Below are positions 3,651 through 19,485 of a DNA stretch of 33,345 nt, piece by piece. The stretch lies in assembly GCF_016653355.1 (NCBI RefSeq), contig NZ_NHSK01000100.1, positions 1 through 33,345 on the forward strand, in the 5' to 3' direction. Every line of letters begins with the position of its first letter. The stretch's first letter is position 1. A program made the position numbers and the translations under genes. The stretch is from Rhodoplanes elegans. GTDB lineage: Bacteria; Pseudomonadota; Alphaproteobacteria; Rhizobiales; Xanthobacteraceae. The notes under the pieces were generated by a model. It was not told the DNA's origin. It worked only from the letters and a program-made list of their open reading frames with translations, and did no database searches.

Positions 3651-4181
3651 TCAGGGCAGCACGACGCGGTTCTTCGAGAGATAGACGCGGTCGCCGCCGC
3701 GGGCCGCCTCGATGACGAGGTCCCACTGGCCGGCGGCGACGTCCTCGGCCTCGCCGCGATAGATGCCGATGCCGCGCTCGGCGATCTCGAGGGTGCGGTC
3801 GTCGCGACGGTCGGTCGGCCGGGCGAGGCGCGCCGTGACGACGAGCCCGCTCACCGGCTTGTCGGTGGCGTCGCGCGCCTCGATGCGCACGCTCGCCTTG
3901 TGGCCGCCGTCGCGCTCGGCGACGCGCTCGACATGGGCGGCGACCTGCCAGCCGCGCGACACCTGCTCGTGCGCGGCGGCGATCTCCTTGTTGTAGGCGA
4001 GGCTCGCCCGATAGGCGCTGTCGACCACGGTGCCGGGCAGCGTGTCGACGGCGAGCTTCATCATCACGCCGTTGACGCCGATCACCACGCCGAAGAAGGC
4101 GAGGATGTAGATCGCCACCCGCCGGCCGGTCAGCGGCCGGCCCCCGCTCGCGGTCTCGGTCTCCGCGGTCTCGGTCTCCAT
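3651..4181 (-). CDS. ccoH: cbb3 oxidase assembly protein CcoH (FixH)
   Basis: 176 aa. CcoH is a bitopic membrane protein that associates with and stabilises the cbb3 oxidase during assembly. A transmembrane helix at about residues 21-43 (RRVAIYILAFFGVVIGVNG) is followed by a periplasmic FixH domain ending in AGQWDLVIEAARGGDRVYLSKNRVVLP. I chose ATG 4181, which has AGGGAG about 8 bases upstream and gives the usual short cytoplasmic leader, here oddly acidic (METETAETET). An in-frame ATG at 4241 would add 20 residues and sit 24 bases from the ccoG stop; it cannot be excluded. It lies 84 bases after ccoG in the same operon. Confidence 0.9.
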   Translation of the reverse strand: METETAETETASGGRPLTGRRVAIYILAFFGVVIGVNGVMMKLAVDTLPGTVVDSAYRASLAYNKEIAAAHEQVSRGWQVAAHVERVAERDGGHKASVRIEARDATDKPVSGLVVTARLARPTDRRDDRTLEIAERGIGIYRGEAEDVAAGQWDLVIEAARGGDRVYLSKNRVVLP

Positions 4182-12327: not shown

Positions 12328-12690
12328 TCAGGAGCGCAGGGTGGCGAGCTGCTGGGTGATGGCGCCGTGCGACAGCGGCTTGCGGATGATGCTCATCTCG
12401 CCGACGCCTTCGAGGCCGCGGAGCTGCAGGTCGATCGTGTTCTGCGACTGGCCCGACATCGCGACGATTCGGGGCGGGTCCTTCAGGCCGTTCAGCCAGC
12501 GAATCAACTCGGCGCCGCTGATGCCCGGGAGAATGAGATCGACGAAGACGATGTCCTTGGCGGCCGGCGGGCCGGCGCGGAAGAAGTCCTCCGCGTCGGC
12601 GTGGCACACGACTTCGAACCCCAAATGCTCCAGAAGGATGGCGAGCGAGTCGCTCACCCCCGGATCATCTTCGACGACATGCACGGCCAT
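12328..12690 (-). CDS. Single-domain response regulator next to fixJ
   Basis: 120 aa, a CheY-like receiver and nothing else. Acidic residues in VVEDDPG (residues 7-8), phospho-acceptor D51 in VFVDLILPG, the switch serine in AMSGQS and lysine in IRKPL are all present, so it should be phosphorylatable. I chose ATG 12690 (MAVHVVEDD); the frame's extension to 12789 crosses a palindrome and is not receiver sequence. In Bradyrhizobium a single-domain receiver gene also lies between fixLJ and fixK2, and the same order is seen here. It may compete with FixJ for phosphate or pass a signal to another kinase; this is inference. Confidence 0.88.
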   Translation of the reverse strand: MAVHVVEDDPGVSDSLAILLEHLGFEVVCHADAEDFFRAGPPAAKDIVFVDLILPGISGAELIRWLNGLKDPPRIVAMSGQSQNTIDLQLRGLEGVGEMSIIRKPLSHGAITQQLATLRS

Positions 12691-12779
12691 GACAGAACCC
12701 AACAGCTCGCAGCCAGCCCACGAGCTGCCTTGCCTCTCAACATCGGAGCACCTCGCCAAGGGCTCAATTCGTAGTACAA

Positions 12780-12801
12780 CGCTAAGCAATATTACTTAGC
12801 G
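12780..12801. promoter_or_regulatory. Palindrome upstream of the single-domain regulator
   Basis: CGCTAAG (12780-12786) and CTTAGCG (12795-12801) are perfect inverted arms around an AT-rich 8-base centre, in otherwise GC-rich DNA. It lies about 90-110 bases before the regulator's start and 50 bases after the fixJ stop. No T-run follows on the minus strand, so an operator is likelier than a terminator. FixJ is the obvious candidate binder given the gene order, but that is inference. Confidence 0.45.
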
Positions 12802-12850
12802 CTCCGAGAGGAGGTCTGCGAGCCTGGGACAGAGCGACGAGGCGGGACGC

Positions 12851-13486
12851 TCAGGCGTTGCGGGGGGACTCCGACAGGACGATGCGGACGAGGTCGGCGG
12901 CGTTCTTGGCGCCGAGCTTCTCCATGATGCGGGCGCGGTGGACCTCGATGGTGCGCGGGCTGATGCCGAGCTGGCGCCCGGCCTCCTTGTTGGAGGCGCC
13001 CGCCGCGATGAGGTTGAGCACCTCGCGTTCGCGCGCGGTGAGGAGGTCGCTGCCGGGGAACTGGGTCAGCGTCTCGCCGAGGCCGGCACGCGCCTGCCGC
13101 CGGCTCGCCGCCTCGATGGCGTCGCGCACCCGGTTGACCACCGTCTCGGCGTCGAACGGCTTCTCGATGAAGTCGAAGGCGCCGTTCTTGATCGCCTCCA
13201 CCGCCATCGGGATGTCGCCCTGGCCGGAGATGATGAACACCGGCGCTGGGTAGTTCTTGGCGTTGAGCTCCTTGAGGATGTCGAGCCCGGACCGCCCCGG
13301 CATGTGGACGTCGAGGATGATGCAGGCCGGCGCCCGCGAGCGCACCGCCGCCAGGAAGGAGTGCCCGTCCGCGAACGTGGTGACGTGATAGCCTTCCAGG
13401 GTCAGCACGACCGAAAGCGCGTCGCGGACCGCGGGATCGTCGTCGATGATGTGGATCTCACCAGCCGCGGTGGCGTTCTGACCCAT
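12851..13486 (-). CDS. fixJ: Two-component response regulator FixJ
   Basis: 211 aa. It has an N-terminal receiver with the acidic triad IIDDDPAV (residues 13-20), phospho-acceptor D59 in IILDVHMPG, the switch serine in IISGQGD and lysine in IEKPF. A LuxR-type helix-turn-helix covers about residues 145-190 (LTAREREVLNLIAAGASNKEAG, then SPRTIEVHRARIMEKL). The AIKNGAFDFIEKPFD stretch is typical of FixJ. ATG 13486 has AAGGACGG about 6 bases upstream, and the gene overlaps the fixL end by 29 bases. Phosphorylated FixJ activates fixK in relatives. Its sensor gene here is damaged, so its control may be altered. Confidence 0.92.
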   Translation of the reverse strand: MGQNATAAGEIHIIDDDPAVRDALSVVLTLEGYHVTTFADGHSFLAAVRSRAPACIILDVHMPGRSGLDILKELNAKNYPAPVFIISGQGDIPMAVEAIKNGAFDFIEKPFDAETVVNRVRDAIEAASRRQARAGLGETLTQFPGSDLLTAREREVLNLIAAGASNKEAGRQLGISPRTIEVHRARIMEKLGAKNAADLVRIVLSESPRNA

Positions 13487-14555
13487 TGTGTCCGTCCTTG
13501 GTTGCTGTCGTCGCGCCCGAGCTCGCCTCGTCCGGCAGCGGCAGCGGCAGGAGCAAGGTGAAGCAGGCCCCCCGCCCCCGACCTCCCGGATCGACGATGA
13601 GATCGCCGCCGTGGGTCTGAGCGATAGATTTCGAAATGGCAAGGCCGAGTCCGAGCCCTTGGCTCTTGGAGGACGAAAAAGCCTTGAACAATTCGGAAAT
13701 GCCGTCCGGAGGGATGCCGGGACCGCTGTCGAGCACGCTCAGCCCGACGCCGTCGGGCCGCAGCCGGGTCGACACCCGCACCACCTGGACGTCGCAACCC
13801 TTGATCGCCTCGATCGCGTTGCGCACCAGATTGACGACGACCTGCTGGATCTGGACCGGGTCGACCATCACGTTCGGCAGGCCGGACGCGAGGTCGCGGA
13901 CGATGCGGGTGCCGGGCGCGCTGCCCAGCACGGTGAGCTCCAGGGCGTCCTCGATCAGCGGGTTGAGCTCGACGCTCTTGCGCACCGGATCGCGCTTCTC
14001 GATGAACTGGCGCATCCGCTGGATGATGCTGCCGGCCCGCTCGGCCTCGCGCACCGCCTTCTCGAGAATCGCCATGACGCTGGTCGGGATGGCGCCGGCG
14101 GCGCCCTGCTTGGCGCAGGAGCGCTCCACCGCCTGGAGATAGAGCATCACGGCGGTCAGCGGCTGGTTGAGCTCGTGGGCGAGCGCCGCCCCCATCTCGT
14201 CGACCGCCGAGACGCGCGCCATGCGCACCAGATTGGCCTGCAGCTGCGCGAGCCGCTGCTCGCTCTCGTTGCGGGCCCGCAGGTCGCGCATGATGCCGAT
14301 GAACTGGCGTCCGGCCGACGTCACCGCCTCGCCGACCGACAGGTGGATCGGGATGACGGTGCCGTCGCGATGCTGCGCCGGAACCTCGCGGCCGATGCCG
14401 ATGATCTTGCGGTGACCGCTCGCGATGTAGTTGCCGATGTAGCCGTCGTGCGCCCGCGAGTGATCGTTCGGCATGATGGTCGAGACGTTGCGGCCGAGCA
14501 TCTCGACCGCCGTGTAGCCGAACAGGCGCTCGCACGCCTTGTTGTAGGTGAGCAC
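13458..14555 (-). CDS. fixL: Oxygen-sensing histidine kinase FixL, 5'-truncated
   Basis: 365 residues from a GTG at 14555, but the homologous frame continues back to about 14579 (IGVDERGIVLTY) and then stops matching; there is no ribosome site. It keeps most of the haem PAS domain. H36 in HSRAHDGYI corresponds to the proximal haem histidine, and R56 in KIIGIGREV to the oxygen-contacting arginine. The kinase core is complete: phospho-acceptor H127 in LAHELNQP, the N box VVNLVRNAIEAI, DSGPGIP and GLGLGLAISKSI. Lost are the first strand of the haem PAS and everything before it, around 140 residues compared with the 505-residue Bradyrhizobium FixL. The 3' end overlaps fixJ by 29 bases. It is either a real pseudogene or cut by an assembly join. 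Confidence 0.85.
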   Translation of the reverse strand: MLTYNKACERLFGYTAVEMLGRNVSTIMPNDHSRAHDGYIGNYIASGHRKIIGIGREVPAQHRDGTVIPIHLSVGEAVTSAGRQFIGIMRDLRARNESEQRLAQLQANLVRMARVSAVDEMGAALAHELNQPLTAVMLYLQAVERSCAKQGAAGAIPTSVMAILEKAVREAERAGSIIQRMRQFIEKRDPVRKSVELNPLIEDALELTVLGSAPGTRIVRDLASGLPNVMVDPVQIQQVVVNLVRNAIEAIKGCDVQVVRVSTRLRPDGVGLSVLDSGPGIPPDGISELFKAFSSSKSQGLGLGLAISKSIAQTHGGDLIVDPGGRGRGACFTLLLPLPLPDEASSGATTATKDGHNGSERHRGW

Positions 14556-14572
14556 GATGCCGCGCTCGTCGA

Positions 14573-14584
14573 CGCCGATTCGCG
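14573..14584. other. Head-to-head junction of two 5'-truncated genes
   Basis: On the minus strand FixL-like sequence runs up to about 14579. On the plus strand symporter-kinase sequence (RRFAILAIMLLAYLY) begins at about 14573. The two overlap by only a few bases. Neither side has a start codon with a ribosome site or room for a promoter. This is the pattern left by one deletion between two divergent genes, or by a false assembly join. Confidence 0.75.
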
Positions 14585-14596
14585 ATCCTGGCGATC

Positions 14597-16924
14597 ATGC
14601 TGCTCGCCTATCTGTACCACCGCTCGGCCGGGCTGGCGCAGCTCGCCTCGATCGGCCTCCTGTCCTTCGCGGCGATCAGCCAGCTCGCGCCGGCCTTCTT
14701 CGGCGGCCTGTTCTGGCGGCGGGCGACGGCGCGCGGCGCGGTCGCCGGCATGCTGGTGGGCTTCGCGGCGTGGACCTGGACGCTGCTGCTGCCGAGCTTC
14801 GTCGCCGCCGGCATGATCGACCGCGACATCCTGGTCCACGGGCCGTTCGGCATCGCGCTGCTGCGCCCGGAGGCGCTGCTCGGTCTCGACCTGCCGCCGC
14901 TCGTCCACGGCGTCGTCGTCAGCCTCGTCCTCAACGTGCTCACCTACGTGGCGGTGTCGCTGCGCCAGGCGCCTTCGGCGATCGAGCGGCTGCAGGCCGA
15001 CATCTTCGTCCCCTCGCGGCTCACCCCGACGACGCCGAGCTTCCGGCTGTGGCGCTCGGCCGTGACGGTCGGCGAGCTGACCACCACGGTCGCGCGCTAC
15101 ATCGGCGAGGAGCGCACCCGCACGGCCTTCGAGACCTTCGCGGCGTCGCGCCGGATGCCGCTCGATCCCAAGCAGGAGGCGGACTTCCAGCTCCTCCAGC
15201 ACGCCGAGTTCCTGCTCGCCTCGGCGATCGGCGCCGCCTCGTCGCGGCTCGTGCTGTCGCTCCTCCTGCGCAAGCGGCTGATGTCGACCAAGGCGGCGCT
15301 CAAGCTGCTCGACGACGCCAACGCGGCGATCCACTACAACCGCGAGATCCTGCAGACCGCGCTCGATCACGTCCGCCAGGGCATCGCGGTGTTCTCCAAG
15401 GAGATGGCGCTGGTCTGCTGGAACCGGCAGTTCGGCGAGATCCTCGACCTGCCGCCGGCGCTGGTGCGGGTCGGCACCACGCTCGACGACGTCCTGCGCT
15501 TCAACGCCGCCAAGGGCGCGTTCGGGCCGGGCGAGGTCGACACGCTGGTGCGCGAGCGGGTCGGCCGCTACGCCACATTGGCCGAGCCGTTCCTGGAGCG
15601 CTTCCCGGCCCGCAGCCTGATCATCGAGGTGCGGGTCGCGCAGATGCCGGGCGGCGGCGTCGTGGTGACGCTGACCGACATCACCCCGAGCGTCGAGGCG
15701 GCCGAGGCGCTGGCGCGGGCCAACGACGAGCTCGAGCACCGGGTGCGCGAGCGCACCGCCGAGCTCGAGCGGCTCAATGCCGAGCTCGCCGACGCCAAGG
15801 CGGCGGCCGAGAACGCCAACCTCTCGAAGACCCGCTTCCTCGCCGCGGCGAGCCACGACATCCTGCAGCCGCTCAACGCGGCGCGCCTCTACGTGACCAG
15901 CCTGGTCGAGCGCCAGCCGACCGGCGAGGAGGCGCGGCTCGCCGGCCATGTCGACGCCTCGCTCGAGGCCGTCGAGGAGATTCTCGGCGCGCTCCTCGAC
16001 ATCTCGCGCCTCGACACCGGCGTGCTGAAGACCGAGATCACGACCTTCGCGGTCGACGACCTGTTCCGCCAGCTCGAGGTGGAGTTCGCCCCGCTCGCCC
16101 GCGAGAAGGCGCTGTCGCTGCGCTTCGTGCACAGCCGCCTGGTGGTGCGCTCCGATCGCCGGCTGCTGCGCCGGCTGGTGCGCAACCTCGTCTCCAACGC
16201 GATCAAGTACACCGAGCACGGCCGCGTGCTGGTCGGCTGCCGGCGCCAGGGCGCCGCCGTGCGCATCGACGTCTACGACACCGGCATCGGCATCGCGAGC
16301 GCCAGCCAGCGCGCCATCTTCGAGGAGTTCCACCGGCTGGAGCGCGGCGCCATGGTGGCGCGCGGCCTCGGGCTCGGCCTGTCGATCGTCGAGCGCATCG
16401 CCCGCGTGCTCGACCACGAGATCGCGCTGCGCTCGGAGGTCGGCCGCGGCTCGCATTTCTCGGTGACGCTGCCGCGCGCCGCCGTGGCGATGCCGGAGCC
16501 GGCCGAGACTCAGGCCGTGCGGGCGCAGGGCCACCTCGCCGGGTCGATCGCGCTGTGCATCGACAACGAGCCGGCGATCCTCGACGGCATGGAGACGCTG
16601 CTGTCGGGCTGGGGCTGCGAGGTGCTGAAGGCGCCCGATCTCGACCGCGCCATCGCGGCGGTGGAGCGCAGCGGCCGGCGACCGACCGTGCTGCTGGTCG
16701 ACTATCACCTCGACATCGGCAACGGCATCGACACCATCGTGGCGCTGCGCCGGCGCTACGGGGAGTCGCTGCCGGCCATGCTGCTCACCGCCGACCGCAC
16801 CCGCGAGGTGCGCGACACCGCCCGGATGCTCGACATCCGCATCCTCAACAAGCCGGTCCGCCCCGCCCCCCTGCGCGCCCAGCTCGCGCAGTGGCAGGCG
16901 CTCCGGGTCGCGGCGGCGGAGTGA
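14597..16924 (+). CDS. Symporter-type hybrid histidine kinase, 5'-truncated
   Basis: 775 residues from ATG 14597; the same frame shows family sequence from about 14573. Intact relatives (sodium:solute symporter domain, PAS, kinase, receiver; the NahK-like group) are about 1,100-1,200 aa, so roughly 380 N-terminal residues, most of the transporter domain, are missing. What remains is the last symporter helices (residues 1-125, with GLFWRRATARGAVAGMLVGF), a PAS domain (about 250-365) and a coiled coil (365-410). The kinase follows with H420 in AAASHDILQPL, N534, DTGIGI (561-566) and GLGLGL (590-595), then a C-terminal receiver with D702 in LVDYHLD and K752. ATG 14597 has no ribosome site. The convergent LuxR regulator at 17125-17805 is a plausible partner. 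Confidence 0.85.
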   Translation: MLLAYLYHRSAGLAQLASIGLLSFAAISQLAPAFFGGLFWRRATARGAVAGMLVGFAAWTWTLLLPSFVAAGMIDRDILVHGPFGIALLRPEALLGLDLPPLVHGVVVSLVLNVLTYVAVSLRQAPSAIERLQADIFVPSRLTPTTPSFRLWRSAVTVGELTTTVARYIGEERTRTAFETFAASRRMPLDPKQEADFQLLQHAEFLLASAIGAASSRLVLSLLLRKRLMSTKAALKLLDDANAAIHYNREILQTALDHVRQGIAVFSKEMALVCWNRQFGEILDLPPALVRVGTTLDDVLRFNAAKGAFGPGEVDTLVRERVGRYATLAEPFLERFPARSLIIEVRVAQMPGGGVVVTLTDITPSVEAAEALARANDELEHRVRERTAELERLNAELADAKAAAENANLSKTRFLAAASHDILQPLNAARLYVTSLVERQPTGEEARLAGHVDASLEAVEEILGALLDISRLDTGVLKTEITTFAVDDLFRQLEVEFAPLAREKALSLRFVHSRLVVRSDRRLLRRLVRNLVSNAIKYTEHGRVLVGCRRQGAAVRIDVYDTGIGIASASQRAIFEEFHRLERGAMVARGLGLGLSIVERIARVLDHEIALRSEVGRGSHFSVTLPRAAVAMPEPAETQAVRAQGHLAGSIALCIDNEPAILDGMETLLSGWGCEVLKAPDLDRAIAAVERSGRRPTVLLVDYHLDIGNGIDTIVALRRRYGESLPAMLLTADRTREVRDTARMLDIRILNKPVRPAPLRAQLAQWQALRVAAAE

Positions 16925-16953
16925 TCAGGCGGGTTATGGAGGCGTTCCTTGCA

Positions 16954-17110
16954 CCTCTCCCCGCTGCGCGGGGAGAGGTCGACATTCGCGCGTCCAGCGC
17001 GGATGTCGGGTGAGGGGGCGTCGCCGCGGGTTTGAGCTTTACGGAGGCGCCCCCTCACCCGACTCGCCGCTGCGCGGCGAGCCACCCTCTCCCCGCCAGC
17101 GGGGAGAGGG
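16954..17110. repeat. Palindromic intergenic element, copy 2 (CCTCTCCCC type)
   Basis: 157 bp, the same hairpin order and orientation as 3462-3617. It has CCTCTCCCC/GGGGAGAGG (16954-16978), an outer GTGAGGGGGCG/CGCCCCCTCAC pair, a CGCCGC/GCGGCG hairpin and a closing CCCTCTCCCC/GGGGAGAGGG hairpin (17085-17110). It fills the gap between two convergent genes and may act as a two-way transcript end. Confidence 0.9.
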
Positions 17111-17124
17111 AAGCCGCCCGACCC

Positions 17125-17805
17125 TCAATGCGGGGCGGCTGCCGTGGCCGGGGGCCACTGGCCAATCTCGATCTTGGAGGCGGCGATGACGGCCTGGGTG
17201 CGGCTCTCGACCCCGAGCTTCTGCAGGATCGCCGAGACATGCGCCTTCACGGTCGCCTCCGACACCGACAGCTCGTAGGCGATCTGCTTGTTGAGCAGCC
17301 CCTCCGACAGCATCATCAGGACGCGCACCTGCTGCGGCGTCAGCGTCGCGAAGCGGGCGAGCGCCGCCGAGGCCTCCGGGTCGGCGCTGGCGTCGAGGTC
17401 GATGTCGGGCGGCGTCCACAGGCCGCCCTGCAGCACCGCCGTGATGCCCTGGCGCATGACGTCGACGCCGAGCGTCTTGGGAATGTAGCCGGCGGCGCCG
17501 AAATCCATGCAGCGGCGGATCACGCTCGGGTCGTCGGTCGCCGAAACGACCACGACCGGCACGCTCGGATACTGGGCGCGCAGATAGAGCAGGCCGGAGA
17601 AGCCGCGCACCCCGGGCATCGCGAGATCGAGCAGGATCAGGTCGACGTCACCGCCGCGATCGAGGATCTCGGAGATCTGATCGAACGATCCGGCCTCGGC
17701 GATCTCGACCTTCTCGAACAGCCCCGCGACCGCCTCCCGCATGGCGCCCCGGAAGAGCGGATGGTCGTCGGCGATCACCAGCCGGTAGAACGTGATGTCA
17801 CTCAA
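17125..17805 (-). CDS. LuxR-family two-component response regulator
   Basis: 226 aa. The N-terminal receiver shows IADDHPLFRG (residues 11-20), phospho-acceptor D60 in LILLDLAMPG, the switch serine in VVSATDD and lysine in YIPKTL. The C-terminal helix-turn-helix has LTPQQVRVLMMLSEGLLNKQIAYEL then SVSEATVKAHVSAILQKLGV. The start appears to be TTG at 17805 (TTG-AGT-GAC-ATC), with GCAGGA about 7 bases upstream; no in-frame ATG fits the receiver's start. It converges on the hybrid symporter kinase, and regulators of this kind are often beside NahK-like kinases, so it is probably the partner. The target genes are unknown. Confidence 0.9.
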   Translation of the reverse strand: MSDITFYRLVIADDHPLFRGAMREAVAGLFEKVEIAEAGSFDQISEILDRGGDVDLILLDLAMPGVRGFSGLLYLRAQYPSVPVVVVSATDDPSVIRRCMDFGAAGYIPKTLGVDVMRQGITAVLQGGLWTPPDIDLDASADPEASAALARFATLTPQQVRVLMMLSEGLLNKQIAYELSVSEATVKAHVSAILQKLGVESRTQAVIAASKIEIGQWPPATAAAPH

Positions 17806-17933
17806 GTCGAATCCTGCCCCTTGATCCGGGCGTGTCGTGCGCGGCGCGACCGGTGCGTCCGGCCCGCGGCCTCCGCCCGCTTACGCCATCATAGGACAAA
17901 TGCACGCACCACCCAATCGGGGCTTGTGCCGAT

Positions 17934-17951
17934 CGTCAAGCCAAATTGACG
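17934..17951. promoter_or_regulatory. Candidate operator upstream of LuxR regulator
   Basis: CGTCAA (17934-17939) and TTGACG (17946-17951) are perfect inverted arms with a 6-base spacer, about 130-145 bases before the regulator's start. The half-sites face the opposite way to a FixK box, so this is not an anaerobox. Binding by any protein is unproven. Confidence 0.3.
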
Positions 17952-18007
17952 CCTCGGGCTACCACCGTGGCCGCGGTCTCGCGCCGTGCGCCGCCAGCCG
18001 CGACGGC

Positions 18008-18469
18008 TCAGGACGTCTCGCCCAGAAATTGCAGCACGACCTCGCGTCGATGCGGCCGCGCCCGGTGCTCGGCGACGTAGATCCCCTGCCAGGTGCCGAG
18101 CGCGAGCCGGCCGCCGACCACCGGGACGGCGAGCGACACGCCGGTCAGCAGCGTCTTCACATGCGCCGGCATGTCGTCCGGCCCCTCGGCTTCGTGCACC
18201 CAGCCGGCATCGCGCGGAGCGAGCCGGTCGAGCGCCGTGACGAGGTCGGTGCGGACGTCCGGATCGGCGTTCTCCTGGATGGTCAGCGACGCCGAGGTGT
18301 GGCGCATGAACAGGAGGAGCGTGCCGTGGCGGCCGCCGACGCCTTCGACGAAGCGCCGCGCCTCGTCGGTGATGTCGACGAAGCCCTCGCCCTTGGTCGC
18401 GACCGTCAGGGTCGCGGTGGCGACCGTCGCCACCGCGGCAGTCCGAACCGGGCTCAGCGTTCCGGGCAT
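18008..18469 (-). CDS. YjbQ/UPF0047 family protein
   Basis: 153 aa. The family signature is clear: FMRHTSASLTIQENADPDVRTDL in the middle and the closing TGVSLAVPVVGGRLALGTWQGIYVAEHR block. Members are compact trimer-forming proteins; some show a weak thiamine-phosphate synthase activity, and the true role is not settled. AAGGAG lies 6 bases before ATG 18469, which fixes the start. It stands alone on the minus strand with a repeat upstream. Confidence 0.9.
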   Translation of the reverse strand: MPGTLSPVRTAAVATVATATLTVATKGEGFVDITDEARRFVEGVGGRHGTLLLFMRHTSASLTIQENADPDVRTDLVTALDRLAPRDAGWVHEAEGPDDMPAHVKTLLTGVSLAVPVVGGRLALGTWQGIYVAEHRARPHRREVVLQFLGETS

Positions 18470-18515
18470 TTTTTCTCCTTCGTCATTCTCATCGTCGCCG
18501 GCCCGAAACTCCGCT

Positions 18516-18537
18516 CGTGCCCGCGCAGGCGGGCACG
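18516..18537. repeat. Short palindrome CGTGCCCGCGCAGGCGGGCACG
   Basis: A perfect hairpin with GCCCGC/GCGGGC core and CGT/ACG ends lies just upstream of the larger inverted repeat at 18556-18680. It resembles the tip of that repeat type and may be a remnant half. Confidence 0.6.
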
Positions 18538-18555
18538 GGTCGAATTCGGGTCCGA

Positions 18556-18680
18556 AGCCTCTCCGCCGTCGTGCTCCGCGAAGGCGGAGCACCCAGTACG
18601 CCGCAGCGATTCGACTGAAACAACCGAGGCCAGTGGATACTGGGTCGTCCGCCTGCGCGGACGACGACCACCGAGAGGCT
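18556..18680. repeat. Palindromic intergenic repeat (CCCAGTA type)
   Basis: The left arm starts AGCCTCTCCG and runs to CACCCAGTA at about 18598. The right arm, from about TACTGGGT (18638) to GAGAGGCT (18680), is its imperfect inverse. Each arm contains its own hairpin: GTGCTCCGC/GCGGAGCAC at 18570-18591 and GTCGTCCGC/GCGGACGAC at 18644-18665. It sits between the YjbQ gene and the next gene upstream on the same strand. Confidence 0.8.
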
Positions 18681-18715
18681 GTGCTTTCACTCCTCTCGGC
18701 TCGCGCCTACACCCC

Positions 18716-19192
18716 TCACGTCTTGCCGAGGTCGCGCTGCAGGCTGGTCATCATCTCGATCAGCCGCCGCCAGGCGCGCTCGACGAAGTTGAGCGCCCGG
18801 TCGAGCTCGGCGTCGGCGCTGCCGCGCCCGGGATCGGCCGGCGCCGCCGCCTCCGGCTTCACCCCGGAGGGCAGCGGCACGCCGCGGTCGAGCAGCGCCT
18901 TCTTGAGCGCGACGTTCTCGGACTGCAGCCGGCTGATCTCGCTCTCGAAGGCGGTGCGGTCGTCGGGCACCGCCTGGCAGGCCCAGCCGGACGACTTGAG
19001 GCTGCACAGCGACACCTGGCCGGTGCGCAGGTCGAGCCGGGCGAAGCCCTCCTCGGTGCGGTGATAGCTGAAGCGGGCGGCGTCGCCGTCGGCGCTCGGC
19101 GGGGCCGGCGGACTCTGGGCCGGGGCGGTCGTCCCGGCGACGACCGTCACGGACGCGGCCAGCACGGCCGCCGCCAGGGGATGTCGAATCAT
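18716..19192 (-). CDS. Secreted conserved hypothetical protein
   Basis: 158 aa. A signal peptide covers about residues 1-25, with likely cleavage after APA. The conserved core FSYHRTEEGFARLDLRTG and then QVSLCSLKSSGWACQAVPDDR (two cysteines) recurs in Hyphomicrobiales proteins of unknown function. It is followed by a short coiled-coil stretch (ESEISRLQSENVALKKALL) and an alpha-helical C-terminus. ATG 19192 has GAGGACCCCCG just before it. No function can be assigned; a periplasmic location is likely. Confidence 0.78.
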   Translation of the reverse strand: MIRHPLAAAVLAASVTVVAGTTAPAQSPPAPPSADGDAARFSYHRTEEGFARLDLRTGQVSLCSLKSSGWACQAVPDDRTAFESEISRLQSENVALKKALLDRGVPLPSGVKPEAAAPADPGRGSADAELDRALNFVERAWRRLIEMMTSLQRDLGKT

Positions 19193-19395
19193 CGGGGGTC
19201 CTCTCGGGTCCAGGGCGTACGGCGGCCGGGGCCGCCGCCGGCCGCCCGTGCGGTCGCTCCCAGCTTAACGCCGATTGCGGCAAATCGGCACCCGCGGCAG
19301 CGCCCGCGCTCAGGCCCCGGTCGGCGCCGGATTCCCCGCAGGAGACAAGGGGGTTAGCGGCTTCGCTGCGGCGCCCACAACGAGCCGTGGAATTC

Positions 19396-19424
19396 TTGAC
19401 TCGCCGAAACGCGGTCAGTATGGT
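19396..19424 (+). promoter_or_regulatory. Likely sigma-70 promoter of the atp F0 operon
   Basis: TTGACT (19396-19401), a 17-base spacer, then TATGGT (19419-19424), about 62 bases upstream of the atpI start. The -35 box matches at 5 of 6 positions and the -10 at 4 of 6. It is the best promoter match seen in the 293-base gap before atpI. Confidence 0.6.
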
Positions 19425-19485
19425 CCGCGCGGCTTTGGCGGGGGGTGGACGTCCGACCGGACGTCGTTGCGCGGGAGGCGAGATC

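Follow-up and report, generated by a model that had tools for sequence, protein, structure and literature searches.

An apparent 1.5-kb deletion truncating a divergent pair of FixL-type and CrbS-like kinase genes in a draft genome of Rhodoplanes elegans

Introduction

The oxygen sensor FixLJ of R. palustris acts via FixK on the cbb3 oxidase genes, and deletion of fixLJ lowers the expression of fixK and fixNOQP, according to PMC13327599. For S. fredii, PMC9100948 describes a crbS/crbR layout with a convergent LuxR-type regulator, and crbS/crbR mutants that do not grow on acetate. The pyruvate sensor RpuS has the CrbS family layout too.

The window analyzed here (33,345 nucleotides, positions 1–33345) is the entire contig C100 of a draft assembly of Rhodoplanes elegans (G000; 6.54 Mb, 320 contigs, 99.67% complete, 2.36% contamination). 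It holds relatives of both systems side by side. In line with action through FixK, as in the R. palustris system outlined in PMC13327599, FixK boxes stand ahead of the cco-type genes here; the difference is that G000 has two FixLJ–FixK sets, the one in the window broken and the one on contig C168 intact. Similarity to the CrbS/CrbR (MxtR/ErdR) acetate system lies in the symporter-type membrane part, PAS, HisKA, HATPase and REC domains of the kinase of a congener (G001), and the LuxR-type regulator is convergent beside the kinase in this locus too, as in the S. fredii arrangement outlined in PMC9100948. The window kinase differs in lacking its first 386 codons, and the regulator scores under the ErdR cut-off. 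A literature search on the Rhodoplanes genome and fixL found no matching paper.

Results

Five genomes placed in the same genus, G001–G005, were used for comparison, with L049 (G001:C3:140000-159500) as the main reference locus; in G005, a genome of 58% completeness, the kinase copy is cut off by the contig end. Window 12328–14572 aligns by blastn to L049 7666–9889 with 89.0% identity, and window 14573–16924 to L049 11391–13742 with 90.6% identity. Between the adjacent bases 14572 and 14573, 1501 bp of L049 have no counterpart, and this is the only deletion-type gap above 300 bp in contig C100 relative to G001. Both breakpoints are found 1.50–1.59 kb apart in all five congeners searched, with the gene order intact (1501 bp in G001, 1500 in G004, 1543 in G003, 1587 in G002, 1519 in G005). 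Of the missing 1501 bp of G001, about 207 bp are intergenic; the remainder encodes FixL residues 1–46 and kinase residues 1–386. The first-pass annotation, made from the window sequence, had seen two head-to-head remnants without their 5′ ends and had supposed that considerably more than 1 kb was deleted between two divergent genes; the alignments bear out both points. Chance resemblance is rejected, given that both arms align to the congener over more than 2.2 kb at 89–91%. A chromosomal rearrangement is likewise rejected, the remainder of the contig (C100 232–33345) being collinear with G001:C3 135992–169378 by DNA alignment. The features are collected in Table 1.

Table 1. Features at the junction, in its surroundings and in the second FixLJ–FixK set
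Feature	Contig	Position	Strand	Remarks
Perfect FixK-type box	C100	5836..5849	+	Upstream of ccoG-like gene; present in G001 too
Perfect FixK-type box, TTGA-N6-TCAA	C100	9410..9423	+	Upstream of ccoN-like gene; present in G001 too
FixK-like Crp/Fnr regulator	C100	10933..11751	-	Frame intact
Single-receiver-domain protein	C100	12328..12789	-	Between fixK and fixJ; frame intact
FixJ-like response regulator	C100	12851..13486	-	Downstream of FixL remnant; intact frame; 99.5% identity to G001
FixL-type soluble PAS histidine kinase remnant	C100	13458..14570	-	5′ end (46 codons) lost; most of PAS, HisKA, HATPase kept
Deletion junction	C100	14572..14573	.	blastn against 5 congeners; 1501 bp of G001 absent in window
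CrbS-like symporter-PAS-HisKA-HATPase-REC hybrid kinase remnant	C100	14573..16924	+	First 386 codons lost
CrbR/ErdR-like LuxR-type response regulator	C100	17125..17805	-	Convergent to kinase remnant; frame intact; Response_reg and GerE
FixK	C168	15731-16693	-	Intact
FixL	C168	16566-18131	+	Intact, 521 aa
FixJ	C168	18121-18780	+	Intact

Past the breakpoint, the congeners continue with T on the FixL strand and with C on the kinase strand, and the preceding bases differ (a versus g, c or t). Therefore, no base of microhomology is visible at the join, although 1–2 bases are still possible, as the comparison uses the bases of congeners and not those lost by the species itself. No direct repeat pairs the two breakpoints among the 20 direct-repeat families listed of 32, and a deletion via direct repeats is rejected. 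The window contains no N. The FixL sequence had been traced at first pass to about 14579 and the kinase sequence to a start at about 14573; the kinase start holds, but the FixL end does not. In the stretch read as IGVDERG, kinase DNA accounts for the first two residues (I and G) and for one base of the V codon, and where the window has these kinase-derived letters the FixL strand of all five congeners continues TGATGATGAT. The apparent overlap of FixL and kinase at 14573–14579 is thus due to a chance resemblance to FixL of the antisense reading of the first kinase codons.

The FixL-type gene has lost 46 of the 414 codons of its L049 counterpart (45 whole and one split). The remnant resembles rhizobial FixL (NF041777) in having a haem-PAS followed by HisKA and HATPase, and differs in starting after the first PAS strand, in line with the early remark that the first part of the haem PAS is lacking. 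It aligns over 101 residues to haem-PAS structures of FixL (e.g. 1dp6, 1xj2; E 3e-23). The His column and the H-D-[SG]-Y-I stretch, which we take to be the site of the haem-ligating His, are retained, pointing to a haem-PAS in sequence terms. A FixJ-like regulator gene, a mark of fixL loci, stands directly downstream. The NCBIfam FixL score is 299.4 for the remnant and 320.6 for the intact 414-aa counterpart in G001, both under the cut-off of 850. Since the intact G001 protein scores so low, the window gene, even in its full-length form, represents a divergent paralogue of the FixL type.

The symporter-kinase gene lacks 386 of the 1169 codons in L049, close to the 380 residues estimated beforehand, and begins inside the membrane domain. 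PAS, HisKA, HATPase and REC each score above the cut-off in both the remnant and the G001 kinase, the domain set looked for in a CrbS, and the NahK/ErcS family domain scores 436.6 (cut-off 400). The SLC5-type symporter domain region is lost in the window. In the intact G001 kinase, residues 10–462 align to a solved "histidine kinase" chain (10ed_A, E 1.9e-60). Pfam SSF has no match in the G001 kinase or in L067 and is above cut-off in the homologue L087 (26.1 vs 22.8). The adjacent regulator is of the LuxR type looked for beside a CrbS; with the ErdR-specific model it scores 245.7, below the cut-off of 390. A protein search with the N-terminal 386 residues gives no match in G000 and one each in G001, G002 and G003, which served as the positive control (G004 and G005 were left out). 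The symporter kinase thus appears, from these sequence searches, to be the sole kinase of its type in G000.

The FixL frame has an in-frame stop at 14597–14595. The first canonical start codons are GTG 14555 in the FixL frame and ATG 14597 in the kinase frame. By eye, no Shine-Dalgarno sequence is seen before either, in agreement with the first-pass annotation, which had found no start codon with a ribosome site. A scan of 14300–14900 found no sigma-70-like promoter, a result of little weight for an alphaproteobacterium rich in G+C.

The reading frames of fixJ, fixK and the cco genes are open in the window, as had been stated before; the cco names come from translations by eye, without database search. 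The promoter region of the window fixJ was probably lost in the deletion, and the gene, lying downstream of it, is perhaps untranscribed. The single-receiver gene between fixK and fixJ is kept in congeners and evolves faster than fixJ. Among the compared genes the fixK-like gene is the most lopsided: of its amino-acid changes (219 sites), 7 fall on the window branch and 0 on the G001 branch.

A complete fixK-fixL-fixJ set, followed by a single-receiver gene, is present on contig C168 (L168) at 15728–19462. The NCBIfam scores of its proteins exceed those of the window proteins: 550.9 vs 299.4 bits for FixL (cut-off 850, both below), 309.1 vs 212.7 for FixJ (cut-off 255, passed by C168 and not by the window) and 231.9 vs 124.9 for FixK (cut-off 300). 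On these scores, including that of the intact G001 counterpart of the window FixL, the window set is the more divergent of the two and the C168 set is nearer canonical. The C168 FixL has counterparts in all four congeners searched (85% identity in G001, 81% in G004, 78% in G003, 73% in G002). To speak of a broken oxygen sensor in this cell was therefore too strong, as FixL, FixJ and FixK on C168 are intact and closer to the models.

Both remnants are free of frameshifts. Omega against G001 is 0.180 for the FixL remnant and 0.247 for the kinase remnant, and ranges from 0.007 (fixJ) to 0.212 (ccoG-like) in the neighbours. Amino-acid changes on the window and G001 branches number 12:5 for FixL (318 sites), 18:10 for the kinase (665) and 11:5 for the ccoN-like gene (508). 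With uninterrupted frames, low omega and branch ratios like those of the ccoN-like gene, the remnants show no sign of decay. Old decaying pseudogenes are rejected, as the remnants evolve like their neighbours, and these substitution patterns suggest a recent date for the event, provided it is real.

A second locus continuing the two fragments, which would have spoken for an artefact, was sought by DNA and by protein search. Neither search found it in G000 (in the DNA search, among the 40 of 779 candidates that were scored). The smallest contig seen in G000 is 4636 bp (4.6 kb), and the deposit may therefore lack short contigs. In 60 stretches of the assembly inspected, the only gap is a run of 100 N. 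It is contained in contig C74 (L170–L180, 218 kb), which, like C76 (L181–L184, 199 kb), matches G001 only in short, weak stretches in the 20-kb pieces searched; for both, contamination, strain-specific DNA and an accessory replicon are conceivable origins. Conversely, the G001 piece L161, one of three tested, has almost no counterpart in G000.

Deletion-type gaps were surveyed with 64 pieces of G000 (1,214,013 bases) against the complete G001:C3 plus the first 400,000 of the 616,660 bases of G001:C1. HSPs below 400 bp or 80% identity, overlapping HSPs and pieces with fewer than 1500 aligned bases were dropped, retaining 11 of the 64 pieces and 126,219 aligned bases of the 6.5 Mb genome. Nine unequal-gap rows resulted, of which six, including 14572|14573, were examined; two in C213 and one in C113 were left out. 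ORFs with third-position G+C below 0.78 were dropped and genes were assigned by eye. Over these 126 kb, 14572|14573 is the one large gap in six that cuts two conserved genes. The other five remove whole ORFs or shorten frames overlapping a retained ORF, bar one case at C200, where a weak partial match (48 residues, 60%, E 9e-9) was taken for an over-long start. At C200 (L193) 3806–3810, G000 lacks an 889-bp G001 segment with an ORF of up to 278 codons; the trmB-like and rimP-like genes on either side are intact.

Discussion

The segment is missing at an exact position, it is present in the congeners, and the remnants are undecayed. A deletion truncating two neighboring genes is a commonplace kind of genome event, and this sequence is probably explained by one recent loss of about 1.5 kb in the lineage that was sequenced, its ends joined without homology. 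One deletion would have removed the 5′ end of the FixL-type gene together with the first third of the divergent CrbS-like gene and the DNA between them that carried both promoters, and the ends would have been joined by illegitimate end joining. Both kinases would then be null, judging from the lack of a promoter, of a start with ribosome site and of complete sensor parts: the FixL remnant lacks the first PAS strand, and most of the membrane domain is gone from the symporter kinase. The fixJ of the window would probably be starved of transcription, and oxygen control of the cco genes would probably be kept by the FixLJ–FixK of C168.

An assembly join would mean that the genome carries the 1.5 kb intact and that chimeric reads, or scaffolding and gap closing, produced a seamless false junction. 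This is unlikely but deserves weight in a fragmented draft of 320 contigs with none below 4.6 kb seen, where a separately assembled piece of 1.5 kb would fall below the smallest contig; both genes are, moreover, kept in five of five congeners and the remnants are undecayed. Yet a join without overlap is hard to produce by k-mer overlap in an assembler, and a real deletion is favored over an overlap artefact because the junction shows no microhomology relative to the congeners and no Ns. The flanks also stand in the right order and orientation at the exact orthologous position, and a cut through two conserved genes occurs at only one of the six large gaps examined against G001. In a mixed sample, from culture heterogeneity or a metagenome, the deletion would be real in part of the cells and the assembler would have kept the shorter allele. 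The undecayed remnants would suit such a very young allele, and the contamination estimate of 2.36% would suit a mixed sample; however, no second allele was found in the assembly, though contigs too short for deposit could carry one, and we consider a mixture very unlikely. That the truncation is adaptive, freeing kinase parts from their sensor domains to give one or two constitutively active kinases, is hardly credible: both catalytic regions are uninterrupted and constrained like the neighbors, but promoters and starts are gone and a simple scan found no replacement promoter.

Should the deletion be real, the window fixJ may be starved of transcription, and oxygen control of the cco genes may persist via the C168 FixLJ–FixK, because FixK is intact and a second FixLJ set is present. 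The loss of the CrbS-like kinase may outweigh that of the window FixL; impaired growth on acetate is expected if the symporter kinase functions as a CrbS. A further reading is that a natural lineage lost its only CrbS-type kinase along with a FixL-type sensor in one step and lives on the second FixLJ–FixK without an acetate sensor, so that the divergent fixL-crbS pair, though conserved across the genus, would be dispensable, and the remnants possibly still signal without sensors; we regard this as quite unlikely.

If the junction is an assembly join, it is a caution against inferring lost sensors from this draft. If the deletion is real, nature has supplied a double mutant in this strain, which would reveal whether the second FixLJ alone runs the cbb3 genes, and whether a purple non-sulphur bacterium needs the CrbS-like kinase for acetate.
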